34,560 bases of DNA from a virus, in the IMG/VR virus record IMGVR_UViG_3300024520_000272, positions 1 through 34,560 of that record; one strand, written 5' to 3'. Under the pieces are notes generated by a model, which saw only the letters and a list, made by a program, of their open reading frames with translations, did not search any database and was not told the DNA's origin. A program made the position numbers and the translations under genes. This document shows, one piece after another, positions 3,579 to 32,554 of this stretch (positions are counted from its first letter, which is position 1; each line of letters starts with the position of its first letter).

Positions 3579-3702
3579 AGTAATTATAGAATTAGAATTT
3601 GATGATAAGCCGACTGATGCAGATGTTTACAATTATCTGAATGAGTTAATGGATAATGATTGTTTGGGATATGAAATAAAGGAAACCGAAGATGAGGACT
3701 AA
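3571..3702 (+). CDS. hypothetical acidic protein, 43 aa
   Basis: The start is placed at 3571, in the fourth junction cassette (GGAAACCGAAGATGA), rather than at an upstream in-frame ATG at 3487, because the cassette supplies a ribosome-binding site. The protein is MNKVIIELEFDDKPTDADV... and ends KETEDED. Its last codons form a fifth junction cassette with no gene of any length after it. Its TAA at 3700-3702 overlaps the TAG of the convergent terminase gene. Confidence 0.65.
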   Translation: MNKVIIELEFDDKPTDADVYNYLNELMDNDCLGYEIKETEDED

Positions 3703-4364
3703 TCCTCGTCCTCTTCTCCAGCTTCTTTAGGCAAAGGTCTAGCCCTACTTTTTTTCTTAACAACTTTCTCTTCAACAATCTCCCCGACCTCTATTTCCTC
3801 AGATCCCGACTTCCCCGACTTGTCTGCAATTTCGACTCCCGACTTATGTTCAATGGCCTGCTTCCCGAGTAGATCCGCTAGCCTTCTTTCAACTTCTCCC
3901 CGACTCATTTGATCTACCTTCCCATGCAATACTTCCCGACGATCGACAATTAAGCCCCCGACTTTTAAAAGTAAATTCTGGGCGTTAATTGCCGCCGTAA
4001 AGTTTCCTTGCGACCAGGCATCATCTCTTAGCTTATACAAGTCCTCGACTGCTCCCTCATGCGTAAGCTCAAACTTCTTCTTGGCTTCGCCCATCAGTCT
4101 TTCGTATTCCCGATACACATGCTGGTACTTCCCGTTAGGCCCCATGTACCGACTAATAACTTTTGGATTCTTAAACCCAGCCTTCTTTGCCGCTTCTGCA
4201 AATGTAAGAGTAGGATCGTTGACTGCATTCCAGACTAACAAACGCTGACGCTTGGTTAGATTCTTCTCGTTATGATTCATATACTCAACAGGCATATCCT
4301 CTGCATCTTCTAATACAGGCTCAACTTTCACCTTTGCTCTTATCCTTGATTCGTCCTTGCTCAT
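3699..4364 (-). CDS. terminase small subunit (TerS) candidate
   Basis: Predicted DNA-recognition subunit of the packaging motor. The 221-aa protein has an N-terminal HTH-like region (about residues 36-70, NLTKRQRLLVWNAV then FAEAAKKAGFKN). A central helical part includes LLLKVGGLIVDRREVLHGKV and MSRGEVERRLADLLG, a layout I know from phage small terminases. The tail is charged and ends EEDED. The ATG at 4364 follows AAGGAGAAAG. No large terminase is adjacent, which is unusual. The start lies inside the end of a 56-aa frame. Its TAG is interleaved with the convergent TAA. Alternative: another HTH DNA-binding protein. Confidence 0.65.
   Translation of the reverse strand: MSKDESRIRAKVKVEPVLEDAEDMPVEYMNHNEKNLTKRQRLLVWNAVNDPTLTFAEAAKKAGFKNPKVISRYMGPNGKYQHVYREYERLMGEAKKKFELTHEGAVEDLYKLRDDAWSQGNFTAAINAQNLLLKVGGLIVDRREVLHGKVDQMSRGEVERRLADLLGKQAIEHKSGVEIADKSGKSGSEEIEVGEIVEEKVVKKKSRARPLPKEAGEEDED
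3783..3962 (-). repeat. GTCGGG word cluster inside the TerS gene
   Basis: Seven exact CCCGAC words on the given strand (GTCGGG on the coding strand) start at 3783, 3805, 3814, 3838, 3899, 3935 and 3957. Near-matches follow at 3864 (CCCGAG) and 4109 (CCCGAT). They fall in all three codon phases: Val-Gly twice, Lys-Ser-Gly three times, and Arg-centred (CGG codon) twice. A simple amino-acid repeat therefore does not explain them. Two more exact copies are in the left-edge gene at 299 and 324. Confidence 0.75.
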
Positions 4365-4491
4365 CTTTCTCCTTATAGCTAATAAGCCGTCCGTTAAAAT
4401 ACCTAACTAATTCTACTACATCTGGTCTTTCTAGCAAAACAACGATTTCCTTGGGCAAAACCTTGCTGCATTTTTCTGTTAATTTATACAT
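4321..4491 (-). CDS. hypothetical protein, 56 aa, overlapping TerS start
   Basis: A 56-codon frame (MYKLTEKCSKVLPKEIVVLL...) with a good GGAGAAGAT-ATG site at 4491. It overlaps the TerS start by 44 bases in another frame. The sequence looks like a short helical domain with a basic, Lys-rich tail. Its ribosome-binding site and position just downstream of the promoter region support it. No family recognised. Confidence 0.55.
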   Translation of the reverse strand: MYKLTEKCSKVLPKEIVVLLERPDVVELVRYFNGRLISYKEKDEQGRIKDKSKGES

Positions 4492-4503
4492 ATCTTCTCC
4501 TAC

Positions 4504-4821
4504 TTTTGTCAGAGCCTATGACAAAACTCTGACAAAACTCCAAACGTGATAGAGTAAGGGTATACAGAGTAATATATATGTCTATATATATAGTTTTGTC
4601 ATACTTTATCTTACCTACCCTTTTCTTTTTCATTTTTAGGTACATTTGTAGGGTTATTTTAAGGGTACCCTGACAATATGACAAAACGCCTAAACCCTAC
4701 TGCTATAACCTTTTCTCTTGTCAGAGGTTTCTGACACTCTGACAAAACTACCCTGTTTTTAACTAAATATAGACAGTTTCGACCTATAAGGGGGTACTTT
4801 TGTCAGAAAAGCCTGACAAAA
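4504..4821. repeat. TGACAAAA repeat array in intergenic region
   Basis: The gene-free stretch 4492-4821 contains eight exact copies of TGACAAAA. Those reading rightward are at 4519, 4530, 4679, 4740 and 4814; those reading leftward (TTTTGTCA) start at 4504, 4594 and 4798. Shorter relatives are TGACAA at 4671, TTGTCA at 4718 and TGACA at 4732. Two pairs form inverted repeats, 4504-4526 (7-base spacer) and 4798-4821 (8-base spacer). A third, TGTCAGA-ggtt-TCTGACA, is around 4719-4736. Candidate roles are operators, origin iterons or terminase-binding (cos/pac) sites. Confidence 0.8.
4656..4684 (-). promoter_or_regulatory. putative sigma70-type promoter for TerS unit
   Basis: On the minus strand, TTGTCA (4684-4679) is followed by a 17-base spacer and TAAAAT (4661-4656). 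Each box differs from consensus at one position. The -35 box is the core of a TGACAAAA repeat, so a protein bound to the repeats would occlude or recruit polymerase here. It points toward the 56-aa gene and TerS. Confidence 0.5.
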
Positions 4822-5085
4822 CTATTCGGGATCTTTTTCCTCAGGTGTGAAGATAATTTCTTTCTCCATACCAAACTCTGAATTAAGTATGTGATCTATC
4901 TTAGATATACCGTCTTCGACTGTCTTTGCGTAATTAATAGTTTCAGTTACGCCGTAAGTAAAGATCAACAAAGCCGTAAACTCTGCGTCTGCTCCTCTGG
5001 ATATAAAATCTTCAAAGAGACTATCAAGTCTGCGTCGACCTTCCTCGAGTGTTGGTGGGCCTTTCTCCATTTTAAGTATCTTCAT
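4822..5085 (-). CDS. hypothetical protein, 87 aa
   Basis: A soluble, largely helical acidic protein: MKILKMEKGPPTLEEGRRRL and later FTALLIFTYGVTETINYAK. Its stop abuts the repeat array on its 3' side. An in-frame Met at residue 6 is an alternative start. No family recognised. Confidence 0.65.
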   Translation of the reverse strand: MKILKMEKGPPTLEEGRRRLDSLFEDFISRGADAEFTALLIFTYGVTETINYAKTVEDGISKIDHILNSEFGMEKEIIFTPEEKDPE

Positions 5086-6080: not shown

Positions 6081-6182
6081 TTGTTCTCTCCAAGAATTAA
6101 TATACCTTTAGTATAAACTAAGGGGTTTACTTTGCAACAAAAATTTTATAGAATTAATAAAACAATTAATCAGGAGAAGATT
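6081..6182. promoter_or_regulatory. divergent promoter/operator region 2
   Basis: This 102-base gap contains the inverted repeat TTAGT-ataa-ACTAA (6108-6121). A rightward promoter candidate has TTTACT (6126-6131), a 17-base spacer and TAGAAT (6149-6154), one base off the -10 consensus. The word TTTAGTATAAAC (6107-6118) differs at one base from TTTAGTACAAAC (2200-2211) in the first divergent region. The two lie at nearly the same distance from their rightward start codons (76 and 73 bases). Confidence 0.5.
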
Positions 6183-6374
6183 ATGCCAATGAGCGAAATG
6201 GATTTTATCAGGGAAGGTATGAAGGCTTTACAGCCAGGACTACCAGCTCCCAATCATACAACAGATGTACAAAACGATATGCAATCGACCGAAAGGTTGC
6301 GTAAGTTTGTTGAGTACATTCGTCAATATCACCCAGCTCTTTTTGAACATGCTTATAAAGAAGCGTCTAAATAA
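6183..6374 (+). CDS. hypothetical protein, 63 aa
   Basis: The start is placed at 6183 because CAGGAGAAGATT immediately precedes this ATG; the longer frame from a TTG at 6132 would run across the promoter. The sequence (MPMSEMDFIREGMKALQPGL) ends in an aromatic-rich helix (RKFVEYIRQYHPALFEHAYK). It is the first gene of the rightward unit 6183-11140. No family recognised. Confidence 0.65.
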   Translation: MPMSEMDFIREGMKALQPGLPAPNHTTDVQNDMQSTERLRKFVEYIRQYHPALFEHAYKEASK

Positions 6375-6469
6375 TGCTTGAGTTTCTTCTTTGGGTTTTG
6401 GGAATAATAGCTGCTTACTCTGTAGGCGGCCTGCTTTACTTTATTTGGCTAATAAATAAAAACTTATGA
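6374..6469 (+). CDS. 31-aa single-span membrane microprotein
   Basis: The frame MLEFLLWVLGIIAAYSVGGL... is almost entirely one hydrophobic helix ending in a basic INKNL tail. It overlaps the stop before it (TAATG) and the start after it (ATGA), the coupling pattern used throughout this genome, which is the main reason to accept so short a gene. It could be a host-membrane-acting peptide; that is inference. Confidence 0.55.
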   Translation: MLEFLLWVLGIIAAYSVGGLLYFIWLINKNL

Positions 6470-6732: not shown

Positions 6733-7250
6733 AAAAAACAAGAAAATGCAGAGTATGTCAGAAGGTTAAGCCTTTAGAAGCTAAATACTTTAATAACAGA
6801 TATGAGATTACTTCTACCCCACCTTTTAGATGGGACTGTAAGGTTTGTTACAACACTAACAAAAGAACCAACCCAAAATATTTTTTAAGTAAGATGCTGC
6901 AACATGCAAGAAATAGATCTGAGTTATATAACAGAGACTTTAATATAACTGTTGATGATATTAGTATTCCAGAGAAGTGTCCTGTCTTGGGTATAAAATT
7001 AGAACATGGTTGGAAAGATGACGAGAGCTGTCCTACCTTAGAGCGGATAGATAACAACGAAGGTTATGTTAAAGGAAACGTAATGGTTGTATCGGCTTTG
7101 GCAAACAGGATAAAGAACTCTGCTACCTATCAGCAGATACTAACCGTTGGATGGTTTTATAAGAAACTCTATCGACAAAAACTTAGATCGGTATTAAAGA
7201 CCAGGATAAGAAATTTAAAAAATAATTTACAAAAGGAGAAGATAAAATGA
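6729..7250 (+). CDS. HNH-family endonuclease with zinc ribbon
   Basis: Predicted DNA endonuclease, 173 aa. Cys pairs CRVC (residues 7-10) and CKVC (37-40) form a zinc knuckle. A later segment has CPVLGIKLE (84-92), then LERIDNNEGYVKGNVMVVS (104-122) and a final ALANRIKNSAT. This is the D-N-x-x-G-Y-x-x-G-N-V signature of a phage HNH subgroup. The C-terminus is strongly basic, as expected for DNA contact. It may be a free-standing homing-type nuclease or a replication/packaging nuclease. ATGA overlaps on both sides integrate it in the operon. Confidence 0.8.
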   Translation: MKKTRKCRVCQKVKPLEAKYFNNRYEITSTPPFRWDCKVCYNTNKRTNPKYFLSKMLQHARNRSELYNRDFNITVDDISIPEKCPVLGIKLEHGWKDDESCPTLERIDNNEGYVKGNVMVVSALANRIKNSATYQQILTVGWFYKKLYRQKLRSVLKTRIRNLKNNLQKEKIK

Positions 7251-9828: not shown

Positions 9829-10630
9829 ATCTGAGCAAAAAGGTGACACCTTAGTGTTCGCAGATATACCTAACCCTGTTTACCATTCAGGTGTTGGGAT
9901 AAGCAGTAGCAAGATTAGAGCCTTTGGTAAATCTCAACTGCATGCAATTGAGAAAGTCCAGGAAACTACCCCTGCAATGAACTTCGGTACAGCCGCTCAC
10001 GCTTTACTGGTAGAAGGGGAAAAAGAGTTTAATGATACGGTAGCTGTTGTTATGGGATCTCCCTATACAAACGCTAACAAAGAACTCAAGAAGGAATACG
10101 AAGAGAGAGGTCTGACTGTTATTAAAGAGAGTGAGATGAAGGCCATCAAAGGTATGAAAGAACATATGATTGAAGAAGGCAATATTTACCTAAACGCAGA
10201 AGGCAAAGTTGCAGAAGCCAGCTTCTATTGGTATGAAGGTGAGGTTCTTTGTAAGTGCAGACCAGATGTTATCTGTCCTCCTGTCCAAAGTCCTTATCCA
10301 GACAATGCTATATGTGTGGTTGATTATAAAACTACTCAGTCTTGCGACCCAGTAGAGTTTGCTTATTCAGTTAAGAAGTATGGCTACGATATGCAAGCAG
10401 CTTGGTACAGAAGAGGTATGGAAGCGGCAGGATTTAAACTTGACGAGTTTGTGTTTGTTGCTCAAGAGAAAGCTTACCCATACGCATCCAAAGTATTTAT
10501 TATCTCAGAAGAGCAAATGAATCTTGGTTGGGACAAAATGGAAGGCTTTTTAGAGTTGTACAAAAATCATTCAGAAGGCGGTCATCTGTCTGTTTATAAT
10601 TCTCCCAATATTGTTACCTTGTCTCTATAA
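9800..10630 (+). CDS. PD-(D/E)XK exonuclease, RecE/DUF3799-like
   Basis: Predicted DNA exonuclease working with a single-strand annealing protein. The start is placed at 9800, where GGAG lies seven bases before the ATG, giving 276 aa. The RecB-type nuclease motifs are in order: FGTAAHALL (His67), CRPDVI (Asp156), VVDYKTT (Asp175, Lys177) and YGYDMQAAWY (Gln199, Tyr203). These match the catalytic D, D-x-K and Q-x-x-x-Y elements of phage RecE-like exonucleases. The Sak4-like annealing candidate lies 1.2 kb away on the other strand rather than next to it. Confidence 0.8.
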   Translation: MIIKELEEFKSEQKGDTLVFADIPNPVYHSGVGISSSKIRAFGKSQLHAIEKVQETTPAMNFGTAAHALLVEGEKEFNDTVAVVMGSPYTNANKELKKEYEERGLTVIKESEMKAIKGMKEHMIEEGNIYLNAEGKVAEASFYWYEGEVLCKCRPDVICPPVQSPYPDNAICVVDYKTTQSCDPVEFAYSVKKYGYDMQAAWYRRGMEAAGFKLDEFVFVAQEKAYPYASKVFIISEEQMNLGWDKMEGFLELYKNHSEGGHLSVYNSPNIVTLSL

Positions 10631-12938: not shown

Positions 12939-15062
12939 GTGTTCAATTTACAAGTAACAGCGCAAGATTCTGCGTTGGACTTAGCTCTTGCTTATGCAGA
13001 ATATGGAATAAGTGTAGTACCTCTACATAGGCATAACAAAGTTCCGCCCAAAGAATTAGGGGGGTGGCAAAAGTTTCAAGAGCGACAGCCAACGACGGAA
13101 GAGATTGAAAAATGGTTTAAAGGGCGAGATGATTTAGTCGTCGCTTTAGTCTGTGGCAAGTTTATTGTTATAGATGCAGACACTCCAGAAGCAGTAAATT
13201 GGTGTGAAACCAATCTACCTATAACACCCTTTAAAGTAGCAACAGGTAAAGGGGTTCATTATTATTACAACAATCCAGAAAACTTTACTACTTGGGTAGC
13301 AAAAAGAGTTGAAGGATATGATCCTGCAAAACTAATTGATATTAGAGGTGTAGGTGGTTTGATAGTTGCTCCTCATAACATACATGCAACAGGTGCTATT
13401 TATACTCCTACTACGATTCCAGATTGGGATCTAAATGATATTGAGGACTTACCAAATCTTACGCAAGAACTTTGGGTCAAAGTTACAGGTGTTGATAAGT
13501 TAAACGGAAAACCAATTGCCACTCCTTTATCTATTCAAGGTATGGCCGAAGGTGGCAGGAACGATCAAGCTGCAAGACTTGCAGGTTATTTAATAGCCAA
13601 AGGTCTTAATACAGATTTTACAGAGTTCTTTGTTCAGTCTTGGAATGAGCAGAACAAACCTCCGTTGCCAGCTAATGAAATATCAACAACAGTAAACTCA
13701 ATTCAAAAAACGCATGATCGTAAAAATTTACAAGCACCAGCTTATATATCAACAACAAAAACAGTTGCTGAGCCAACCAATCTTTTCTCTCCTCCAGGAG
13801 TATTAAAAGATATATACGAATACTCTGAAGAAATAGCACATATCTCTCAGCCTGCTATCAGTATGCAAGCAGCATTATCTTTAGGCTCTGTTGCTTTAGG
13901 TAGGATGTATAGAACTGATATGAATAACTTTTCATCTTTGTTCTTTATGTGTATTGCTAAGTCGGGCCAAGGCAAAGAAAATGTTAAGACTGTTGTTGAG
14001 ACTATTCTTGATCGAGCAGAGCATAGTGATTTAATGGCAGGGGACGGCTACACATCAAGCGGAGCTATCTACAGCTTACTTAGATATAAACCAACTCATA
14101 TAACTGTTATGGATGAGTTTGGCAAAAGATTGGAAAGCATATCTAAATCTAGTAACTCAAACAAAGAAGACGCTCTGCAAGTGTTAATGGAAACTTGGGG
14201 TAGGTGTCATGGTGTCCTAAGACCAGATAACTATTCAATGATGACTCTAACCAACAAGCAACAAAAAGAAGTCTTAGATAGGTCAACAATCAAGCCTGCT
14301 ATTACTTTAGTTGGTATGAGTGTGCCTAAAAACTTTTACGGCGCTCTCTCAACAGGTCGTATTGTTGACGGTTTCTTAAATAGATTTATTGTTGTTGAAT
14401 CTCATGTGCCAAGAACAGTTGGCAAAATGGTAGCTTTCGTTGAGCCACCTCAATCTACTTATGATTGGGTGTCGCATGTAAGACAGGTTGATAACGAAAT
14501 GGAGCAGATATCTAGAGATAACGCTGAATTAGATTTTAAACAAAGAATTATAAAGTTTGATGATGACTCTAATGACTTGTTTGACAAGTTAGCTTACAAG
14601 CTAGTTGACCAACAAAATGCTTTAGAGAAAGAAGGTCTTGAAGTGCTGCTTTCTAGAACCAGGGAAAAAGCAATGCGTCTTGCTTTAATAGGAGCTTTGG
14701 CAGATGACAGAAAAACCAAAGTGATTAAAGGCGATGTAACTCAATGGGCTATTGATTATGTTTATTACTACGATCAAATGTTAATAGAGAACTGCAAAGA
14801 TAAAGTTGCTGGATCTGAAATGGAAGGCCGTATTAAACAGATACTTAGCTTTATTAGGTCGCAAGGGGATTGGGGTATAAGTAAGCGTGATATTGATAGG
14901 CGTGAGATATTCAGATCAATGAAGTCATATGAAGTAAAAGAAATTATAGAAAGATTAAAAAACTCAGGGGAAATACAAGAAAAAGATTTAAAGGCGAAGG
15001 GAACGGGAAGACCAACAAAACGTATTGTTGCGATCGACCCAGAATTTTTTAATGAAGATTGA
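12939..15062 (+). CDS. bifunctional primase-polymerase fused to DUF3987 ATPase/helicase
   Basis: Replication initiator-type protein, 707 aa. The N-terminal Prim-Pol domain has ALAYAEYGISVVPL (17-30), the catalytic DAD (79-81), KGVHYY (104-109) and DIRGVGGLIVAP (134-145). A primase C-terminal segment (GRNDQAARLAGYL) follows. The ATPase domain has SGQGKE (342-347) and Walker B VMDEFG (390-395). The P-loop Lys is followed by Glu, not the usual Ser/Thr. The C-terminus looks like a winged-helix. The GTG start at 12939 is inferred from the stop two bases upstream; the Shine-Dalgarno is weak. No DNA polymerase is seen in the window, so a host polymerase or one encoded elsewhere is needed. Confidence 0.85.
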   Translation: MFNLQVTAQDSALDLALAYAEYGISVVPLHRHNKVPPKELGGWQKFQERQPTTEEIEKWFKGRDDLVVALVCGKFIVIDADTPEAVNWCETNLPITPFKVATGKGVHYYYNNPENFTTWVAKRVEGYDPAKLIDIRGVGGLIVAPHNIHATGAIYTPTTIPDWDLNDIEDLPNLTQELWVKVTGVDKLNGKPIATPLSIQGMAEGGRNDQAARLAGYLIAKGLNTDFTEFFVQSWNEQNKPPLPANEISTTVNSIQKTHDRKNLQAPAYISTTKTVAEPTNLFSPPGVLKDIYEYSEEIAHISQPAISMQAALSLGSVALGRMYRTDMNNFSSLFFMCIAKSGQGKENVKTVVETILDRAEHSDLMAGDGYTSSGAIYSLLRYKPTHITVMDEFGKRLESISKSSNSNKEDALQVLMETWGRCHGVLRPDNYSMMTLTNKQQKEVLDRSTIKPAITLVGMSVPKNFYGALSTGRIVDGFLNRFIVVESHVPRTVGKMVAFVEPPQSTYDWVSHVRQVDNEMEQISRDNAELDFKQRIIKFDDDSNDLFDKLAYKLVDQQNALEKEGLEVLLSRTREKAMRLALIGALADDRKTKVIKGDVTQWAIDYVYYYDQMLIENCKDKVAGSEMEGRIKQILSFIRSQGDWGISKRDIDRREIFRSMKSYEVKEIIERLKNSGEIQEKDLKAKGTGRPTKRIVAIDPEFFNED

Positions 15063-15273: not shown

Positions 15274-15757
15274 TCCAAAACCAAAGATGGAGAATATTAA
15301 CGACCAGAAGCGTGAAGAACGCGTTGCTGGTTTTATAGAGGGACTCTGGAATGTTAGATGCCATAAACTACCAGTCAGTTACGGCTTAGATTACTGGTGT
15401 GAATCTAAAGAAATTTCATTCTGGCTAGAGGTAAAGTGCAGGACTTTTGGTATAGATAAGTATGACACTTTGCTGCTTTCTGCTAGCAAGCTAAGAATGG
15501 GCTCAGCTCTATCTCTTGCTACCAACCAACCTTTTGTAATTGTTTACGCTATGACTGATAGTGTTTATAGCCATACTTGGAAAAGAAGCCACATATACGA
15601 TGTTAGGTTTGGTACAATAGCAGAGCCTATATATGAGGAAGATTCAGAACCATACATTCATTTTAGTCGGGATGAGTTAGAATGTTTATCTCCCCATCCT
15701 TTAGGGTTTGACCGAGAAGAGATGGGTCTTGTAAACAATTATAAAAAGGAAAAATAA
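15266..15757 (+). CDS. PD-(D/E)XK-like nuclease
   Basis: The ATG at 15266 has AAAAGGAGAAGCGA before it, so the in-frame start at 15209 is rejected. The 163-aa protein has YGLDYWCES (Asp about residue 47) and, 13 residues on, WLEVKCRT, a D...E-x-K nuclease pattern. A helix (DKYDTLLLSASKLRMG) and a strand (FVIVYAMT) follow, as in restriction-endonuclease folds. Probably a structure- or DNA-specific endonuclease serving recombination. It overlaps both neighbours. Confidence 0.6.
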   Translation: MDNPKPKMENINDQKREERVAGFIEGLWNVRCHKLPVSYGLDYWCESKEISFWLEVKCRTFGIDKYDTLLLSASKLRMGSALSLATNQPFVIVYAMTDSVYSHTWKRSHIYDVRFGTIAEPIYEEDSEPYIHFSRDELECLSPHPLGFDREEMGLVNNYKKEK

Positions 15758-16285: not shown

Positions 16286-19200
16286 GTTAGGCTTGCTATT
16301 CCACCTTGAGCGATATCCATATTAGCTGGATTGTTGCCTATCAAACTTTGACTCATTCTTCTTGGGGAACTAGGAGCTATTCCTTGGACCTTTGGAATAT
16401 CCATACTAAAGTTAGAAGCCCCTAAGTTTCTTTGCTGCACTTGTTGTTTAGCATCTTGCACTGCTCCAGAAATGCTAGAGATAATTTCGTCAAGAGCGCC
16501 CTTAGATTCTTGCCCTTGTTCACTTTCCCCTATCTCAGATGCAGCATCTTGAATGCCAGTTCTAGTTTGCTCAATTCCTTTTGTGGTTTGTAGGGCAATT
16601 TCTCTAACTCCGCTGAGTCTTGCAAATCTTTCTCCAAATCTTAAAACTTCTGCAACGGAGCTTTTGTCTGTTTTTGTTAATAAACTTACCATTCTTGGAT
16701 TTGCAAAAAGAGCTTTGTAGAAACCCATAGCTGCAATGGTTGGCCAAAGAGATACATTTAATATGTTAATAGCCAGCATCCCAGCAATCAATCCGCCAGC
16801 TCCTCCACCGCCTTCTTCTGCGACATTAGTTCTTATAGCTCTTGAAAAATTCCTCAAAGATTGAGTAATCTCTTTTCCAAACATTGCATTTAAAGTTTCT
16901 GTGTCGTACATCTTTAAAGCTCTGTCAAGATTGTTAGGTTTAAAAATTTCGTTTAATTTTTTGCTTCCTGTTTGAACGCTGTCTCTTAATATTTGTTCCA
17001 AGGCCTGTTCTCGTATTTCAATAAATGCGTCGTCGCTTACTATTTTCTTAACTCTTAATATGTCTTCTGCTGATTTAGGTCTAAATACCACCTTTGCTAT
17101 TTCTTCTGGAGATGCGTTTTCAATCCTTGAAAAAATATTTGTAGCTTTCATCGACTCTATTTCAGCACTTTTAATTGCTCTCGTCTCAAGTGCTTCTAAA
17201 AATCTTCCCGTACTTAAGCTAATATCATCTGGACTCATGCTTTGTATGTTTGCTACCTTGCCTTTAAATTGATTAGCAATTTCAGCCATTTCAGTTGCGG
17301 TTAATTTAGGTTTTAAGGTAACAAAATTATCAATGGTGCTAAAAAATTCTGTGGATTTATTTCCTAGTATGTATCGTAAAGTATCTTTATCTTTTAATAC
17401 TTTATTGGCAAAAGCCGCAATATTTATGTTTCTAGATATAGGGTCATTTATAGATGATTCAGATGTTTCCTTAATATACCTTCTCATAAATGATTGAAAT
17501 ATAGAGCCTCTTTTGTCTTCAGGTATTGCATTAACCAATGCTTTTATATCTGTGGTTGTTACATTCCCCTTAAAGATTGCATCGTAAACATCAGCAGGAT
17601 CAACCGATTCTGAGTTTTTAAGTTTTTGAATAAGAGCAGAATCAAAAGGCTTATGTTGTTTATAATAATCCGAATTTGCTTTATTCAATCTTGTTCTTAT
17701 TAAGTTTATTTCAAAAGACTGCGCTTTAGTTAAAGGCTTGCCTTGTTGTTTACCTACTCTCATTGCAGATGTAAGGGCTGAATCTCCTAAATTTTTAATT
17801 TTTTCATCTAAAATTTTTATTACTTCATCTACTAAATTTCCTTGTTTTCCACCACTTAATCCCATTATTAACTTTTTACCCTTTAGGTTAGAACGCATGT
17901 TTATTAATTGAGTAAAACTATGACCCCCTTCTGCTTTTAGTCTTGCGGGTATGTCTTGTCGCATGTGCGCAAGAACCTTTCCAACTGGGCCATCAATATC
18001 AAAAAATCCAGAATTTAAGTCGATAACTTCTTCTAAGTAATCACTTACATCTGAAAGATTGACTTTAAAGTCTGGATCTATTTTTCTTACTCTTGCAAAC
18101 AAATCATCATAGGTAGTTTCAAAACCTTCTTGCATAGTTCTATATGCTCCAGCAATTGTATCTTGAATATTTTCGCCAAGTTGTTCTTTGCCCATCAAAG
18201 ATGCGTTGCTAAAACCTCCGCTTTCTTCAGCCAAATCTTTAACCAAGCCTTCTATCTGTTTGGTTATATCTTCTTCCGCCATATCTAATTCTTTTCTTTT
18301 GGCTCTAACCTCTGCAATTGTTTTAGAGTCAGCTCCATCAAATTTTGATAGCTCTTTTAACTTTGCTCGTTTGTCTGTAACCGATCTTTTTAATTGATTT
18401 AATAAAGATATGTTGTAAGCAATAATTGACTGTTCTCTTCCTTCTTTGCCAAAAATAGTTTCACCAGCAGCTTGCATTCTCCCTGGGATAGCTCTTTTTA
18501 AAGCATTTTGACTAACAACAGCGCCTATATCAAACTTTTCAACTTTTTTATTTTTCCAGGCTTTTCTAATTTCTGCTTGAGTTGCGGTTCTTCCAAGAGA
18601 AGCATCAAGTTTTAAAACATCATCTAAACTATATCTATTAGACATAATCCAGGCATCTCTAATTGTTTCTGTTCCAGCCTTTCTTCCTAAGACTGCTCCA
18701 AAAGCTTTGCCAACAAATTCACCAAGGCCTTGCCCAGCAAAACCAACACCAGCTTCAAACTTTAACAAATTTCCTAATTCTTGGGCGTCTTTATCGTAGA
18801 AGCCTTGCATGTTATCTAAAGCCTCCTCAGCGCCTTTACCAGTAGCAGAACCAACACCAGATGCAATGGCATTTCTAAGCATCGGAGTTTTAAAGAGATA
18901 GCTAAGGCCTTTTAAAATTTTAAATTGAGGTGTTAAAGCTGCTATAGCTCCAAAAACAGGTCCAACCGCTCCCGCAAAATCTGCGTAATCTCCAGCAGAA
19001 CCAAATTTATTTTCATCTATAACAACGCTTTTACTCATTGGTTTTTCCCAATCTAGTAAACCTTGGTCAATTAATATTTGTTGACCTTCTGGAGTAATCG
19101 CTAGATCACCCTTAGTTGTCATATTGAAACCATCTTTTGTTACAGCAGCTCTAAGAACGTTTTCTTTTTCTGTCATCTTTTCTTGTCTTCCAAGTTTTGC

Positions 19201-25309: not shown

Positions 25310-27147
25310 CTTCTACCGTCTGTTTTTACGTCTAGTCTTGTAGCTCCTAATCTCCATCCTACGCTTGTATTTGCTATTGTATCGTCATCGTCAGACTCAA
25401 ACCTTAAAACGGCTTGACGCCCTCTTGCTCTAATATTGGCTTGTTGCGTTGTAGAGCTAATAGAATTGGTTGAGTTTGTTGTTAAAGAATCTCCTGGAAA
25501 GTTTCTTGTTTTAACAACTATATTAACTTTACCGCCACCTGAGTTAGATAAGAATTTAAAATCTGGAATAATTCTTCTAATAAAACTAAATTGTTCGCCG
25601 TCTCCTATATCAAAGTCGGAGCTTTCAATAAACACATTCGTCATCGGCGTGCCGTCATCGTCAAAACCAACTTCTTGTTGGTAAACATATCCGCTACTAA
25701 CAGCACGTGGATAGTTTTCAATACCAGAATCTAGCCAAGCTGTTCTGCTTAAAGACCCATATATCCAAGTTTGATCTGCGTAATTATAAATAACGTATCT
25801 GTCTATTTCTGTTGAAGATGCTGAACAGTAGAACCAACCCACTTCACTTTTATCGTTAATTGTAAAAGCATTAATTTTAAAAGATTGAATTAAATTAATA
25901 TCTGAAAAAATGTAATTCTGAACGCTGCAAGGCAAAGATTGGACTGTACCGTTGTAAGCGTAAAAATTATTGTAGCTCATCCAAAAAACAGCAGTTGGAG
26001 CTGTAACGGATGCTTTAGGCCCTATTAGACCTGTACCTTCGTTAATTAAGTTAACAGCAAAAGTAAATGGCGGTCCAACAAACTGCATGCTATATAAAGC
26101 AGTATCTGTCCAAACCAATATTTCTTGACGAGACTTGTTAGCTCCAATAATAGAAGAGCCAGACGATAGCCTCAAAGATCCTGCTGTATTGGTAATCAAA
26201 GGTTCAAATTGCAAATCGTTTTCTTGGTCAGAAAAAGCAATTAGCATTGGATCAATTGTTCCAGTCCTAGCGCTTCCAACAATAGGGTCGCATCCTAATA
26301 CAATTAAATGACGATCTTTCTCTGAAGTAATAACTTGAATACCCTTGGTAGGTACTAAATTAGCTCCAGATATACCAGATAACTCAACTGCTCTAGTTGT
26401 TACGCCGTTGTTTTCTGTCCACTTATAAATACCACCATTTCTAGCATTAATAATAAGGTTTTCGCCAAAGTGGTCATGTGACCAAAGTCTCAACTGCCCT
26501 GTTTCATTTAACGCAGTAGATGAACCAAACGTCCCCTCACCCCAATTGTTCGCACCCCAACCCGTAGATGGAACGTAAACATCCAAACCTACGTTTATTT
26601 GATAGGCTGCGTCTGTGGCACTTCCACCATTGCCTGTGTCACTACCATTAGCTGTAGCTGATGCTACAAAAGTATATGTGTTGGTAGTAATAGAGGTTAT
26701 CTGATGTTCTGTGTTTAAAACTGTGGCTGTAATTGCTCCACCTAAAGAAACAGCATTACTTATGGTTACAAAATCATTAATTACAGCTCCATGATCTGTA
26801 TCTGTTGCTGTAATAATTGCACTACCGTTTGTTGCGGCAAAAGTAGTAACGTTTAAATCTGTTGATCGTATTGGCGTAATATCATAAAAAACATTACCTT
26901 GTTGAACGTAGTATTTAAAAGTTGTTCCCAAACCTAATAATTTATCACCACCTAGAGAAACCCAAGCGTGCAAAGCTCTACATGTTCCTAGAAAAGTATC
27001 GGTTGTAAGTTTTGCCCAACCTCCAAATTTTTCAGGCAAGCCTTTTCTAAATCTTACAAGATTAATATCAAACCATCCCCCTTCATTGCTGTAGTCTGTT
27101 CCTTCTCTGTTTATCCCTGGTTTAAATATTGTTTTTTGTAAAGCCAT
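25306..27147 (-). CDS. P22 gp10-like tail/DNA-stabilisation protein
   Basis: Predicted portal- or tail-tube-associated plug. The start is placed at 27147 (MALQKTIFKPGINREGTDY), one base after the lysozyme stop, giving 613 aa; the frame upstream from 27177 lies inside the lysozyme gene. The opening with GINREGTDYSNEGGWFD and VRFRKGLPEKFGGW, then many short beta strands, resembles packaged-DNA stabilisation proteins of the P22 gp10 type in marine podoviruses. Residues about 95-190 form an inserted Ser/Thr-rich beta domain. The likeness is from memory. Confidence 0.6.
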   Translation of the reverse strand: MALQKTIFKPGINREGTDYSNEGGWFDINLVRFRKGLPEKFGGWAKLTTDTFLGTCRALHAWVSLGGDKLLGLGTTFKYYVQQGNVFYDITPIRSTDLNVTTFAATNGSAIITATDTDHGAVINDFVTISNAVSLGGAITATVLNTEHQITSITTNTYTFVASATANGSDTGNGGSATDAAYQINVGLDVYVPSTGWGANNWGEGTFGSSTALNETGQLRLWSHDHFGENLIINARNGGIYKWTENNGVTTRAVELSGISGANLVPTKGIQVITSEKDRHLIVLGCDPIVGSARTGTIDPMLIAFSDQENDLQFEPLITNTAGSLRLSSGSSIIGANKSRQEILVWTDTALYSMQFVGPPFTFAVNLINEGTGLIGPKASVTAPTAVFWMSYNNFYAYNGTVQSLPCSVQNYIFSDINLIQSFKINAFTINDKSEVGWFYCSASSTEIDRYVIYNYADQTWIYGSLSRTAWLDSGIENYPRAVSSGYVYQQEVGFDDDGTPMTNVFIESSDFDIGDGEQFSFIRRIIPDFKFLSNSGGGKVNIVVKTRNFPGDSLTTNSTNSISSTTQQANIRARGRQAVLRFESDDDDTIANTSVGWRLGATRLDVKTDGRR

Positions 27148-27148
27148 T

Positions 27149-27607
27149 TTATATATGTTCCCAAGGTTTTCCCTCAAACATTAAAGCTTCTGCTTCTCTT
27201 CTTCTTGTAAGCCCAGCCAAAACTTTTCTCTCGCCATTTACTGTAGCTTTATTCCAGCGTTTAATTTGATTTGAAACATCTTCGTAATCACCTGCATTTA
27301 ATTTTTTTAACAAAGTAGAAACTTTTAAATTAGCTGGGCCAAGGTTGTAAACCCAAGAAACCAAAGCATCAAACTGACATTGGTTCATTGGTACAGTCAC
27401 TAAAGAATTAACGTAATGCTCATATTCATCTTCAAGCTCGCGCCATAACATAAATTCTGCTTTTTCTTCGCCCCAAGTGTCGCCTTCTTGGACATCTTTA
27501 GTATGGCCATAACCAATAGTCCAAACTCCTGCAGCACATTTGTATGCTTCTAATTCACAACCTTCAAATTTTTTTATAAGGTCAAATCCTTCATCTGAAA
27601 TATGCAT
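27149..27607 (-). CDS. GH24 endolysin (lysozyme) with E-C-T triad
   Basis: Peptidoglycan-cleaving muramidase, 152 aa. The start at 27607 is chosen because it begins the family domain and overlaps the preceding stop by one base; the upstream extension is out of frame with the neighbour's protein. Active site: Glu15 in FEG, Cys24 in YKCAAG and Thr30 in TIGYGHT. That fits E-8aa-C-5aa-T, a known variant of E-8aa-D-5aa-T. VWTIGYGHT and SWVYNLG are diagnostic. No signal peptide or anchor, so release needs the holin genes just upstream. Confidence 0.9.
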   Translation of the reverse strand: MHISDEGFDLIKKFEGCELEAYKCAAGVWTIGYGHTKDVQEGDTWGEEKAEFMLWRELEDEYEHYVNSLVTVPMNQCQFDALVSWVYNLGPANLKVSTLLKKLNAGDYEDVSNQIKRWNKATVNGERKVLAGLTRRREAEALMFEGKPWEHI

Positions 27608-27822
27608 TATATTGCTACTATTCCTGTTAAAGAGGCAAGCAAAAGCGTTGCCATAAAACCAAAAGTCCCAAACATTGCCACTCTTAGAGTTCCGTTTAGA
27701 TCGTTCATTTCTTGTTTTATCTCTGCTGTTTCTTTGAATATGCTCTTCCATCTTTCTTCACATTTTGCCTCGTGAGATTTTAAGTCTGCGTGAACGTCAC
27801 CTGCTGTTTTTCTATTACTCAT
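27607..27822 (-). CDS. one-span membrane protein, XhlA-like holin partner
   Basis: The start is at 27822 (MSNRKTAGDVHADLKSHEAK), whose ATG overlaps the holin stop by eight bases. A charged helical N-terminus of about 45 residues is followed by one hydrophobic segment (FGTFGFMATLLLASLTGIVA). This is the layout of haemolysin XhlA-type phage proteins. Located between holin and lysozyme, it probably assists or regulates lysis. Confidence 0.7.
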   Translation of the reverse strand: MSNRKTAGDVHADLKSHEAKCEERWKSIFKETAEIKQEMNDLNGTLRVAMFGTFGFMATLLLASLTGIVAI

Positions 27823-28297
27823 CTTTATCAGGGGTGTTTGAAGCGCCAAAGTAAAAGGAGATGACAGCACTTGCTAAACCTCCTAAGTAACCTAAGACTA
27901 AGTTAATAAGAGCTTCAGAGTTTTGTTCTGGTGGCTGCAAAGTCACTAAGAATATATAACCCATAAACCCACCAACAACAACAGTACCCATAATTCTAGC
28001 AGTCCAGTCTTTGCTAAACTTACCTCTAGCATCTTGTTTGTCTTGAACTTCTAGTTTAAATACATCTACTTCAAGCTCTTTCATTTGTAGCTCAAAACCT
28101 TGTTCAGCTTTCTTAAGCTCTAACATTTGTTCTGGGGTTGCTGCTTGTATAGCTTTATTAATAGACTTGGGATCTGATTGACATCCAAGCACACCAGCAA
28201 TAACAGATGCTGCTTGACCGCCTAATGGCCCACCTAATGCTGAACCAAGCGTAGGAGCCAAAGCACCTACTACATTTTTAATTAAATTAAATTTCAT
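27815..28297 (-). CDS. three-span holin (GTA_holin_3TM type)
   Basis: 160 aa. A Gly/Ala-rich hydrophobic N-terminus (about 8-38) precedes a charged helix with LEVQDKQDARGKFSKDW, then two more spans (IMGTVVVGGFMGYIFLVTL and LVLGYLGGLASAVISFYFG). The D-x-x-x-A-R motif before the second span is typical of the GTA_holin_3TM family. The holin makes inner-membrane lesions so the lysozyme can leave the cytoplasm. Gene order in the lysis cassette supports the call. Confidence 0.8.
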   Translation of the reverse strand: MKFNLIKNVVGALAPTLGSALGGPLGGQAASVIAGVLGCQSDPKSINKAIQAATPEQMLELKKAEQGFELQMKELEVDVFKLEVQDKQDARGKFSKDWTARIMGTVVVGGFMGYIFLVTLQPPEQNSEALINLVLGYLGGLASAVISFYFGASNTPDKDE

Positions 28298-28301
28298 ATT
28301 A

Positions 28302-28643
28302 TTAACCTGCTAATGGATTGCCAGCTTCTAGTTTTTTAAGATCTCTATCTAAACTTTGAAGGTCTGCTTTAATAGTAGCTATATCAGTTTTTATTTCAGT
28401 AACATCTGGTACTTCTACGCTGTCTATTTCTTTTTCTAAAAACTTAACTGAAGTCTCAATAGATGCAAAACGTTCTTCAATGGCTTGTTGCGCTTGTTCA
28501 GTATCGCCTATACCGCCTATCTGAGCTTCTAGGTTGTCTAGTCTATTAACGTATTGAGCTCCTTGATAGCCAAACCCAGCAAGGGTAGTAACTATTCCAG
28601 CCAGAGCTATTAATTGAGTTGTTTTGTTTTCAAACCAATTCAT
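28302..28643 (-). CDS. membrane-anchored coiled-coil protein, lysis cassette
   Basis: 113 aa. One N-terminal span (TTQLIALAGIVTTLAGFGYQ, about 8-27) is followed by a long coiled coil (RLDNLEAQIGG and TDIATIKADLQSLDRDLKK). It overlaps in position with spanin or antiholin genes of other phages, but no lipobox or second span is seen. A strong AGGAGAATGAG site precedes its ATG. Confidence 0.6.
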   Translation of the reverse strand: MNWFENKTTQLIALAGIVTTLAGFGYQGAQYVNRLDNLEAQIGGIGDTEQAQQAIEERFASIETSVKFLEKEIDSVEVPDVTEIKTDIATIKADLQSLDRDLKKLEAGNPLAG

Positions 28644-28652
28644 CTCATTCTC

Positions 28653-30896
28653 CTATAAATTTGGTTGCAATTTTTGCAACTCAGTTAAAGTTTCTATACT
28701 TTGTCCAGCTAACTGATAAAACGCTAGAGTATTATCTGGTATTGTGTTATTAGTATAAATGCTTTTAGGCTCATACCAAAACTCTTTTTCAGGTATAGAG
28801 ACTATTCTATAGTTATTAAAGCCTGGTAAGAAACCCATAACAGCAATAATTGCATTCTCTGAGCCATATTCTCCCGTCTCTTCTTGTTGCGCTGTTACTT
28901 GATCTTGGGCTGTTTGTAGGTTTTTAGCTATGATGTTTTCTACTGTGGTGTCTGTTTCTGAGTTAACTTCTACAGAAGCAATAGACGTATCCATCTGATC
29001 TTGCGTTGTTTCATCTGTTCCACGTAGAACAACTGTTTCTGTTGATACTGTATCTGTTTCAACAGATGTAGAGCTAAACGAAGAGTTTGATACGGACACG
29101 CTGCTCATATCAAGAACTTGATTGGTTTGAGCAGTAGATGATGCAAACTGATCTGACATACTAGGAGAGCTACTAGTACTAAAACCAGCGTTAGATGAGG
29201 AACTTACAGCATTCCCAGAAGCTATACTGTTGCCTGTAGAATGAACTGAGTTGCCAGCATTAGTACCGCTAACGCTTTGGCTAGCTGTTGTTATTGTAGA
29301 AGCAACAACTCTAAGAGCTATATCTCTGCTAATAGAGCTCTTACCTGTAGCCTCTTGCCTCTCAACTACTTGGAATTCTTCTTGAAAAGTTTCTTCAAAC
29401 TCTTCTGCTACATCTTCTCTTTCTAATCTTTCTTCTTCTACTTCAGCTTCAGCCATTCTTTCTTCTATGGCCTCAAAGATTTCTTCTACAGCTTCTTCTT
29501 CAAATATCTCTTCTATAAATTCTTCTTCAGGCTCATCTAGTTCTGCCATTTCTTCTTCCATTCTTTCTTCTTCTTGATGTGTTTCTTCTTCAAACCATTC
29601 TTCTAGCTCTTCTATACTATTAAATTCTATAAATGTTTCTGGTTCTCTATAATCTTCTACCAAAAAGTTTTCTTGAAATAAAAATTCTTCTAATAAAATT
29701 TCATCTGGGTGATGATGCATTTGTTCTTGTTCTACATCCCATACATCCATCATTACGTCTACATCGTCATAAGACGTTATAAGTGTAGTCTCAAAATCTA
29801 TCATCCCATCATCACTGAAACTTATATCTGAACCCATCCAATCATCAACTTGTTCTTGACCAAATTGTTCTACATCCAACTCATACCAGTCTGCGTCAGT
29901 AAATCCAGCGCACCTATTTTCATAACAAGGATCATTGGGATCTAACCATTCGTCATACTCTTCGTCATACCACATATCTTCTTCTTGATATCCGTAGTCA
30001 GTATCATCGTCAAAATAAGCAACAGAATCTTGTTGCCTGTACCCAGGACAGAAAGGGCCGTATTGAGGATCTAAGTCACATTGAAAGTCATCAAAAGCGT
30101 CCCAGTAATAAGGGCATGATTCTGCGTACAATTGATCTATATCGCATTGTTGGGTTTGATATGCATCAGCATAGCCAGAGCAACTAGAGTCATTTAAAGG
30201 ATTACTACAATCTACACCATTACCAGTTCCTACTCCGAACAAAGAACCACCATTTTCTAGATTAGTATTTTTATCAGAGTTGTTCCAATCGTAGTTATAA
30301 CAACTAGAGCTGTTGGTTGAACCTGTATTGCACTCATCGTGGTAATAATATTGATAGAATTGTTTGCTGCCACTTCCAACCTCACCAATTAAAACATCGT
30401 GATTAATAATATCTAAAACACCATACCTAAACTCAAATGTATCGTTAGTCCAAAGTATTACTTCAAAGCTGTTATCAGAGGCTCGGTTGTACTCTCTCAT
30501 GTCATACCAACCGAATACTGTTTTATCGCTAAAGCTTTTAGCTAACATGCTTGAGTCGTTGTCTCGTATGAGGTCAGTCCAAAAAGGTAGTAAGGTGTAA
30601 GTATACTGAGAAGCTAATGGGTCGGGAGTAAAGTCATTACAGAAAGCGCCTGTTGTTTTAAAGTGTAGACATCCATTAGTAGCTATACGCCCTTGGGTAA
30701 AGGCTTCGCCATAAAAGTCAAAAGTAAAACCAAGATTGAAAGTTGCGGAAACTTGATCGTCTCCTGAGTTTAAACTGGTAGTACCAGATTGGTTGGTTAG
30801 ATCAATTAAAGACTGGTTAGCCTCATAAATGTATTGACTTAATACATCGAGACTAAACAGGCATGCTATTGCGTAGCATAAAATTCTTTTTTGCAT
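28653..30896 (-). CDS. secreted NIDO-domain, Cys-repeat, acidic protein
   Basis: 747 aa. A signal-peptide-like start (MQKRILCYAIACLFSLDVLS) is followed by a NIDO-like domain: FNLGFTFDFYGE, IATNGCLHF, then LLPFWTDL and VFGWYDMREY, about 50-170. Next are repeated Cys modules with CDxDxxYxxxCPxY (about 240-290), a very acidic helical stretch, and a Ser/Thr tail. NIDO occurs in cell-surface adhesion proteins; similar marine phage proteins exist to my memory. It may be a virion surface or outer-membrane factor. The start overlaps the upstream gene by 31 bases. Confidence 0.65.
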   Translation of the reverse strand: MQKRILCYAIACLFSLDVLSQYIYEANQSLIDLTNQSGTTSLNSGDDQVSATFNLGFTFDFYGEAFTQGRIATNGCLHFKTTGAFCNDFTPDPLASQYTYTLLPFWTDLIRDNDSSMLAKSFSDKTVFGWYDMREYNRASDNSFEVILWTNDTFEFRYGVLDIINHDVLIGEVGSGSKQFYQYYYHDECNTGSTNSSSCYNYDWNNSDKNTNLENGGSLFGVGTGNGVDCSNPLNDSSCSGYADAYQTQQCDIDQLYAESCPYYWDAFDDFQCDLDPQYGPFCPGYRQQDSVAYFDDDTDYGYQEEDMWYDEEYDEWLDPNDPCYENRCAGFTDADWYELDVEQFGQEQVDDWMGSDISFSDDGMIDFETTLITSYDDVDVMMDVWDVEQEQMHHHPDEILLEEFLFQENFLVEDYREPETFIEFNSIEELEEWFEEETHQEEERMEEEMAELDEPEEEFIEEIFEEEAVEEIFEAIEERMAEAEVEEERLEREDVAEEFEETFQEEFQVVERQEATGKSSISRDIALRVVASTITTASQSVSGTNAGNSVHSTGNSIASGNAVSSSSNAGFSTSSSPSMSDQFASSTAQTNQVLDMSSVSVSNSSFSSTSVETDTVSTETVVLRGTDETTQDQMDTSIASVEVNSETDTTVENIIAKNLQTAQDQVTAQQEETGEYGSENAIIAVMGFLPGFNNYRIVSIPEKEFWYEPKSIYTNNTIPDNTLAFYQLAGQSIETLTELQKLQPNL

Positions 30897-31942
30897 TGTT
30901 TATTAGTTTTAGTTTTTCTTGTATAAATAACTTTAACTGCACCCACAACATCTTTATTTATTTTTTCTCTTTTAGGGTTTGAATCGTATGTGCATTGTTT
31001 AATAAACAGTTCTTCTTGTTCTTTTGCGTCTGGTCTTTTTGATTTATTATCAGCCCAAGCTAACGTAGCTTCTTTGCCTATCTTGCCCTTGTATGGACAA
31101 GGCGTACCAGCCATCTCCATAGCTTTAAATACTCTTTCGTCCTGGCAAAGAATAGATACTGAGGCCACTTTCATCCCAGTATCGTAAAGATATTTTGAGA
31201 GTTTAAGCCTTTCGCAGTTTTGATCTGTAATTGTTTTACCGCCTGAGAAACCAAATATCTGTCCTTGAAAAGCTGCGGATCTTCCTACAGTACATAAATC
31301 CTGGCTGTAACTCATTATGCTTGGAGCGATAGCTGAAGCTGGTGGAGCTTCTGACTTTACGTTTTGATTTATAGTTTGAGTCGAATTCGATTCGTTAATG
31401 TTTCTATTCGTATTATCAGATTTGTTGTTATTTTGATTAACATTTTTGTTGTTAGTTGTAACATTTGAATCCGATTTTGAAGTATTGACATTTGTATTAT
31501 TCGAAGTGTTGACGTTAGTATTATTCGAAGTGCTTGAATTATTGACATTTTGGTTGACCGTTGAGTTTACGGTAGAGTTTGACGTAGATGTATTAACGTT
31601 GTTATTGCTATTGGTGTTATTGCTTGTAGCCGTTGAAGTATTAACGTTGTTGTTAGAATTAGTAGAAACGTTAGTATTTTGATTTGTATTAACGTTGGTA
31701 TTGGCATTTGTACTAGTGTTGATATTGGTATTGGCGTTAGTATTGGTATTATTATTGGTATTATTATTCGTATTGGTATTGGTATTGGTATTGGTTGTAG
31801 TCGTAGTATTTTGAGTATCTAAAACGCTGTTTTCACAATACTGAGTACCTGCTGTACAAGTTCCTGTTTGATTGTCTGCTTGTATATAATTTGGAAATAA
31901 TAAAAAGGCTATTAAGCCTGGAATAAGTTTAAGTTTTTTCAT
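30866..31942 (-). CDS. secreted Asn/Thr-rich protein with Cys-rich C-terminal domain
   Basis: 358 aa. The ATG at 31942 (MKKLKLIPGLIAFLLFPNYI) heads a clear signal peptide; an in-frame TTG two codons upstream is less likely. About 150 residues of Asn/Thr/Ser repeats follow. The C-terminal domain begins PSIMSYSQDLCTVGRSAAFQ and has Cys residues in SILCQDERVFKAMEMAGTPC and further on. This domain resembles proteins I recall beside NIDO proteins in marine phages. Likely exported, possibly disulphide-bonded. Function unknown; pairing with the NIDO gene suggests a joint role. Confidence 0.65.
   Translation of the reverse strand: MKKLKLIPGLIAFLLFPNYIQADNQTGTCTAGTQYCENSVLDTQNTTTTTNTNTNTNTNNNTNNNTNTNANTNINTSTNANTNVNTNQNTNVSTNSNNNVNTSTATSNNTNSNNNVNTSTSNSTVNSTVNQNVNNSSTSNNTNVNTSNNTNVNTSKSDSNVTTNNKNVNQNNNKSDNTNRNINESNSTQTINQNVKSEAPPASAIAPSIMSYSQDLCTVGRSAAFQGQIFGFSGGKTITDQNCERLKLSKYLYDTGMKVASVSILCQDERVFKAMEMAGTPCPYKGKIGKEATLAWADNKSKRPDAKEQEELFIKQCTYDSNPKREKINKDVVGAVKVIYTRKTKTNKQCKKEFYATQ
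31677..31800. repeat. ATTGGT/ATTATT hexamer tract
   Basis: A degenerate six-base tandem repeat (GTATTG and ATTGGT units) encodes Asn-Thr dipeptides in the Asn-rich secreted protein. Length is likely variable between relatives. Confidence 0.8.
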
Positions 31943-32363
31943 CTTCAATTAGCGTGTGTAGCCCTTTTTGTATTAATATATCTCTATTTTTAAGATGCTC
32001 TAATTGAATGTCTTTTTTGCTTTGGCCCTCATACCTAACTGCTAGATGATTTGTAACCATTCTTTGATTAATATTTATTCCATCTACAACAACTGACGCC
32101 AAAACTCTGCCGAATTTTCCTTTAGAGTCTTTTAATTGCGTTTGTAAGATAACGTTTTTGCCATTTAATATAGCGTCTTTTAAAAACTTAGCAGCTAGCT
32201 TACCTCTAACCTTTTCGTCTTTGTTGCGAGTCCTAGACTCGGGCGTGTCAATACCGTATAAACGTACGCGACACTTGTAAATAATATCAAAGCCAAGATC
32301 TAAGTCAACGTCAATAGTATCACCATCAACAACACGAGTGACTTTGCAGCCATACTCGTACAT
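31929..32363 (-). CDS. staphylococcal-nuclease-like (SNase) thermonuclease
   Basis: 144 aa. The SNase core is intact: VVDGDTIDVDLDLGF (Asp13, Asp15), Arg34 with LYGIDTPE (Asp39, Glu42) and GKFGR (Arg86). These match the Asp/Arg/Glu/Arg active site of calcium-dependent SNases, which cut DNA or RNA. There is no signal peptide, so it acts in the cytoplasm or in the particle. It sits among virion and secreted-protein genes. It could degrade host DNA or process DNA at entry; both are inference. Confidence 0.85.
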   Translation of the reverse strand: MYEYGCKVTRVVDGDTIDVDLDLGFDIIYKCRVRLYGIDTPESRTRNKDEKVRGKLAAKFLKDAILNGKNVILQTQLKDSKGKFGRVLASVVVDGININQRMVTNHLAVRYEGQSKKDIQLEHLKNRDILIQKGLHTLIEDEKT

Positions 32364-32554
32364 TATAATCCTGCTTTATAAATTATTTTTTTTTTCTTAG
32401 GAGATTTTGTTTTTTTTCTTAAGACTTTTTTGTAAGCTTCGTTTTGTACTGTTTTTGGATCATCAGCTATATAACGGCCTTTAACATCTCTAGTTCTTAC
32501 ATCTACATAAGAAAGAGGTGTGATAAAAGTAAGAAACTTTTTAAACCAGCTCAT
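32363..32554 (-). CDS. hypothetical basic protein, 63 aa
   Basis: It begins MSWFKKFLTFITPLSYVDV, an amphipathic N-terminal segment, and ends in a Lys-rich tail (KKTKSPKKKKIIYKAGL). It overlaps the SNase start by one base (TAATG). Probably membrane-peripheral or DNA-binding; no family recognised. Confidence 0.6.
   Translation of the reverse strand: MSWFKKFLTFITPLSYVDVRTRDVKGRYIADDPKTVQNEAYKKVLRKKTKSPKKKKIIYKAGL

Follow-up and report, generated by a model that had tools for sequence, protein, structure and literature searches.

An array of short repeated words was analysed in a 34,560-base stretch of viral DNA, which is a genome fragment from IMG/VR virus record IMGVR_UViG_3300024520_000272 and is referred to here, at its full length, as the window. 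The array lies beside a 221-amino acid gene that, as judged by sequence profiles, is terS, which encodes the small terminase subunit (TerS). It consists of exact and imperfect copies of the word TGACAAAA in both orientations and is accompanied by an AT-rich stretch. The features of the locus, in window coordinates, are listed below.

3699..4364, minus strand: terS, small terminase subunit as assigned from profiles, 221 amino acids, N-terminal helix-turn-helix (HTH)
3783..3962, minus strand (the sense strand of terS): seven copies of GTCGGG inside terS, in three reading frames
4321..4491, minus strand: open reading frame (ORF) of 56 amino acids between the array and terS; a recognisable copy is present in four of the five genomes compared within the clade of the window
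4504..4511, minus strand: TGACAAAA word 1, inverted pair with word 2 (7-base spacer)
4519..4526, plus strand: TGACAAAA word 2, forming an 11-bp tandem with word 3 (TGACAAAACTcTGACAAAACT) that is found exactly in 78 viral-contig stretches
4530..4537, plus strand: TGACAAAA word 3
4570..4595, no strand: AT-rich stretch (ATATATATGTCTATATATATAG)
4594..4601, minus strand: TGACAAAA word 4, adjoining the AT-rich segment
4671..4678, plus strand: imperfect word TGACAATA, 8 bp from word 5
4679..4686, plus strand: TGACAAAA word 5, providing the -35 box of a promoter-like site on the minus strand (4684-4656)
4716..4723, minus strand: imperfect word TGACAAGA
4732..4739, plus strand: imperfect word TGACACTC
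4740..4747, plus strand: TGACAAAA word 6
4798..4805, minus strand: TGACAAAA word 7, inverted pair with word 8 (8-base spacer)
4814..4821, plus strand: TGACAAAA word 8, ending at the stop codon of the upstream gene
4822..5085, minus strand: upstream gene of 87 amino acids, kept in the clade of the window

The word array and its conservation

The original prediction, which was made from the sequence alone, had described eight exact words at 4492-4821, three partial copies and inverted pairs with 7- and 8-base spacers, and all of these are present at the positions given above. The view that the array exceeds chance was also borne out: the word occurs nine times in the window against a whole-window expectation of 2.85, no shuffle gave nine copies, and its cluster ranks first in an unbiased scan of all 8-mers (log10 E ~ -10). 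Eight of the nine copies lie within 4504-4821 and the ninth at 20366. Its extended form is TGACAAAACT, and the 11-bp tandem TGACAAAACTNTGACAAAACT is present in 78 stretches of viral contigs, on most of which the neighbouring gene is also found. Neither a match in Rfam nor near-identical DNA in phage records was detected. Whether the array fills the largest non-coding gap, as had been stated, depends on the gene calls, since the interval 6081-6465 is longer unless the weak ORF within it is real. The second-strongest 8-mer cluster of the window (AATACCAA / ACCAATA, 7-8 copies at 31609-31789) is located inside a gene (30866-31948).

A search for relatives of the 221-amino acid gene yielded 122, of which 80 were kept, and array conservation was scored in approximately 84 distinct sequences that include the whole upstream region and whose TerS proteins are 66-99 % identical. 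All of them carry 7-11 exact TGACAAAA words in the same gap of ~290-345 bp, between the 87-amino acid gene and the 56-amino acid gene followed by terS, which identifies the array as a conserved element; relatives with the same genes and without the word, which were sought as a refutation, were not encountered among these sequences. Word orientations and many spacings are kept inside sub-clades, and the sequence between the words drifts more than the words themselves, a comparison that the original prediction had suggested as a check. The stop codon of the upstream gene is overlapped by the words, as is the start codon of the 56-amino acid ORF by the last word in some relatives, and the words are therefore sites in the DNA and not a protein-coding feature. 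When genomes were scanned without bias, the array came first among the 8-mer clusters of G001, G002 and Pelagibacter phage HTVC023P; in G003 it came second, after a cluster of six AACCCGAA words within ~100 bp (40785-40880). Locus L091, which is without this terS, holds two arrays of six TGTGACAAAAC words in 11-12-bp tandems (6898-6966 and 9933-9990), one per orientation, close to a distantly related TerL (27 % identity).

The assignment of the 221-amino acid product as TerS is based on several comparisons. The protein matches the annotated TerS of HTVC023P and HTVC027P weakly, and a 44-sequence family profile matches the SF6/SPP1 TerS structures (3zqp, 4zc3 and 2cmp) and that of Pam5 (21di) with E ~1e-4. 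TerS proteins of the sister clades match PF03592 and phrog_51, and the window protein alone matches no PHROG or Pfam model, so that a placement in the SPP1/SF6 (Terminase_2) family would be made through the profile and the sister proteins. An AlphaFold model places the HTH at residues 38-73 and long helices after it (mean predicted local distance difference test score 64, ~88 in the HTH region). Given that a Foldseek search with this model, which is of low overall confidence, returned no significant match, the assignment rests on sequence profiles. TerL is lacking from the window, where the sole phrog_2 match is a helicase, and is present in relatives of 48-53 kb. A search of GTDB contigs for a related terS, as a clue to the host, found none.

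A second repeat family is found within terS itself. The 3' half of the gene contains 5-11 copies of GTCGGG in most relatives of the window clade and two in one relative, always on the sense strand; the seven copies in the window compare with means of 0.05-1.5 in synonymous shuffles, in which seven was never reached. On the same strand, the gaps that separate terS from TerL hold further tandem GTCGGG arrays with a 7-bp period, several of them immediately behind terminator-like hairpins, and a strand bias is apparent in G002 (26107-32494; 27 plus, 1 minus), with further arrays at L153. These arrays may belong to the packaging region, or they may be a distinct, polarised signal of a Chi-like kind. 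The sister phages are devoid of GTCGGG arrays and have other clusters of GC-rich short words between terS and TerL, namely CAAGC (7-bp period), GCGAGC and ACGGCCC (HTVC027P 16517-16624 and 17397-17504; 023Pt_psg01 15371-15457; DSL-LC04 14492-14784).

Arrays in sister phages and the candidate reader

The TerL of the window clade is 59-62 % identical to that of HTVC023P, HTVC027P, 023Pt_psg01 and DSL-LC04, and TerL, portal and capsid are common to all these phages. The replication genes differ, with a Prim-Pol/DUF3987 protein in the window clade and PolA, primase and helicase in the sisters; in a comparison of a window-clade genome with sister genomes, TerL, portal, capsid and TerS were shared and no replication gene was. 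The HTVC023P, HTVC027P and 023Pt_psg01 clades nevertheless carry one array each within ~1 kb of terS, so that an array stands beside this gene in four clades, each with a word of its own. The words are CTAGGAAA, upstream of terS, in HTVC023P-type loci; TTGNNNCA, downstream of terS, in HTVC027P-type loci; and TGGCACA, 530-660 bp downstream of terS, in 023Pt_psg01-type loci. The last of these arrays is the first-ranked 7-mer cluster of its genome in an unbiased scan, and the words of HTVC027P itself are too degenerate for such a scan. No earlier report of such arrays in pelagiphages was found in the open-access literature.

When read in the direction of TerL, the array spacings are 8-43-11-21 in 023P and 8-43-11-10-10 in 027P, in which terS is inverted. 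The words have therefore been replaced all together within a kept scaffold, which implies one reader with a changed specificity, and a host reader would not explain words that are specific to each clade. As TerL, portal, capsid and TerS are shared without shared replication genes, the common phage-encoded reader would most simply be TerS; no other evident candidate for sequence binding is present among the homologues identified in both the window clade and its sisters.

Variation within the 027P clade bears on the same question. The central triplet of the word is TAA-like, AGA or TCT, and residue 52 of TerS, which comes directly after the HTH, is T or S in all 15 AGA loci and K or Q in all 36 TAA loci. 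The nearest neighbour by the HTH half of TerS has the same word in every case (1.00), compared with 0.94 for the C-terminal half of TerS and 0.89 for gp28, which is encoded between the array and terS. The poorer fit of gp28 suggests selection beyond linkage, and gp28 was rejected as the reader because near-identical gp28 proteins occur with different words. The objection that words change while the TerS HTH remains constant was dropped, since the words share the frame TTGNNNCA and their differences follow a few TerS residues.

The proposed role of the array

The reading that is favoured here, with a probability of about 0.52, is that the array serves an HTVC023P-like marine podovirus as a pac-like region, at which TerS binds and packaging is initiated, and that it resembles the pac of SPP1 and is probably also self-regulatory. 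The ring-shaped TerS encoded next door would read the repeated word through its HTH units, with words 8-11 bp apart engaging neighbouring subunits and the remaining words being reached through DNA wrapping or looping. The resulting complex would recruit TerL to start packaging, presumably with cleavage at the array and headful filling, and would probably also repress the transcript starting within the array. This scheme is proposed on the precedent of SPP1 and on the word spacing, which fits ring subunits. The pac of SPP1 contains direct repeats over promoters and the start of terS, its TerS binds at pacL and pacR and represses its own promoter and synthesis (PMC4737164, PMC6316719), and the HTH units of TerS rings are approximately one helical turn apart (PMC4737164). 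As in SPP1, the array adjoins terS and holds repeated sequence elements.

Several observations weigh against this reading. The main published one is that the isolated DNA-binding domain of SF6 TerS has little sequence preference and does not favour pac repeats (PMC4737164). In the 027P clade, the exonuclease encoded beyond the array is as closely matched to the word as the TerS HTH (1.00); linkage can thus mimic co-adaptation, and the tracking by the HTH half is support rather than proof. The predicted recognition helix varies within the window clade (NPKVVSRYM / NPIVVGRYM) while the word is constant, the spacing of the window array matches the sister arrays only in part (8-9-45-8), and the freshwater relative DSL-LC04 has no clear array by terS.

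Three roles had originally been put forward, namely an operator for the terminase unit, the iterons of a replication origin and terminase recognition sites of the cosB type. As an operator, the words would be bound by a phage regulator that controls the transcript running from the gap through the 56-amino acid gene and terS into the late genes, a role consistent with an array that extends from stop codon to start codon and overlaps both, with inverted word pairs resembling dimer sites and with a word that forms the -35 box of a promoter-like site. That site, taken in the original prediction for a good promoter, does exist as the pair TTGTCA-17-TAAAAT (4684-4656, minus strand); however, such sites are no more frequent in the array region than in shuffles (2 vs 2.1), and the -10 box is not conserved in relatives. 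Neither a conserved promoter under the words nor a second cluster of them elsewhere in the genome was found, the 027P and psg01 clades carry their arrays on the other side of terS, and the four arrays have no regulator gene in common next to them, so that a dedicated operator seems unlikely. An operator role may nonetheless exist alongside packaging, by analogy with the self-repression of SPP1 TerS. Slightly more doubtful is an origin at which an initiator would bind the words as iterons and melt the neighbouring AT-rich segment. The words do flank an AT-rich stretch, and the segment matching 4570..4595 is the AT-richest 60 bp of G001 and G003 and the second in G002; SPP1 origins are built likewise (PMC6316719), and the window clade has its own Prim-Pol/DUF3987 replication protein. 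However, the segment is unexceptional in the window and in the sister genomes, and GC skew, for which a switch at the array had been suggested as a check, tracks the direction of the genes and shows no switch at the HTVC023P array. This role is further weakened by the sister clades, which carry equivalent arrays at terS together with non-homologous replication genes (PolA, primase and helicase), so that the array is not kept with one replication initiator.

Terminase recognition next to terS is accordingly the element of the original prediction that the comparison favours, in the form of an SPP1-like pac. A lambda-type cos site, in which the words would be cosB-like sites beside a fixed cohesive-end cut, would also account for several TerS-sized sites adjoining terS, and contig ends in the 023P and window clades (loci L182-L261) are indeed several-fold denser 0-500 bp upstream of terS than further out. 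They are, however, scattered over hundreds of bases without a shared terminus, and their clustering was rejected as a terminus signal because it is broad instead of sharp, which favours a pac of the SPP1 type over a cosB of the lambda type. Moreover, 023Pt_psg01 is recorded as circular, and many 023P-type genomes have been circularised from terminal overlaps (PMC9599517), which likewise counts against a cos site and leaves it highly improbable.

A bolder and more tentative extension of the pac-like reading is that TerS and the array form an exchangeable specificity code, in which spacing is kept while the words switch together with a few residues of the TerS HTH region, thereby setting packaging-specificity groups among co-infecting, abundant ocean phages. 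If this were true, a TerS ring would be able to read sequence via an array of HTH units in phase with the helix, at odds with the model proposed for SF6, which is independent of sequence. Recognition of viral DNA by small terminases is debated with respect to both wrapping or threading and sequence or shape. The arrays offer, in an abundant ocean phage family, putative recognition words that are explicit, recur at a spacing close to the helical turn and change between clades as a set, and swapping words or TerS residues could test the recognition question directly. For uncultured phages with unmapped termini, the array may also provide a signature by which packaging sites can be located in the sequence.

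Comparison with known systems

The Pelagibacter phages HTVC023P, HTVC027P and 023Pt_psg01 resemble the window clade in their TerL, portal and capsid families and in the presence of an array near terS, and differ from it in the word and in the replication genes; two of them have the array downstream of an inverted terS. The origins oriL and oriR of SPP1 and plasmid iteron origins similarly combine repeats with an AT-rich stretch, whereas the arrays described here are kept together with terS and the packaging module across differing sets of replication genes. In lambda cosB, the R sites bound by gpNu1 also represent several TerS sites beside terS; in contrast, the arrays have a shorter word in more copies and in both orientations, and no fixed terminus is seen.

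The closest parallel is the pac of Bacillus phages SPP1 and SF6, which has repeats in and upstream of terS that overlap the start of the terminase unit. The SPP1/SF6 TerS, gp1, is matched by the family profile of the TerS of the window, and a model in which DNA wraps around it, its HTH units being about one turn apart, has been put forward. Unlike in SPP1 and SF6, terL is kilobases from terS rather than adjacent. The array differs from SPP1 pac in its many exact and concertedly evolving words, with 7-11 copies of a single word distributed over ~300 bp and exchanged as a set between clades.
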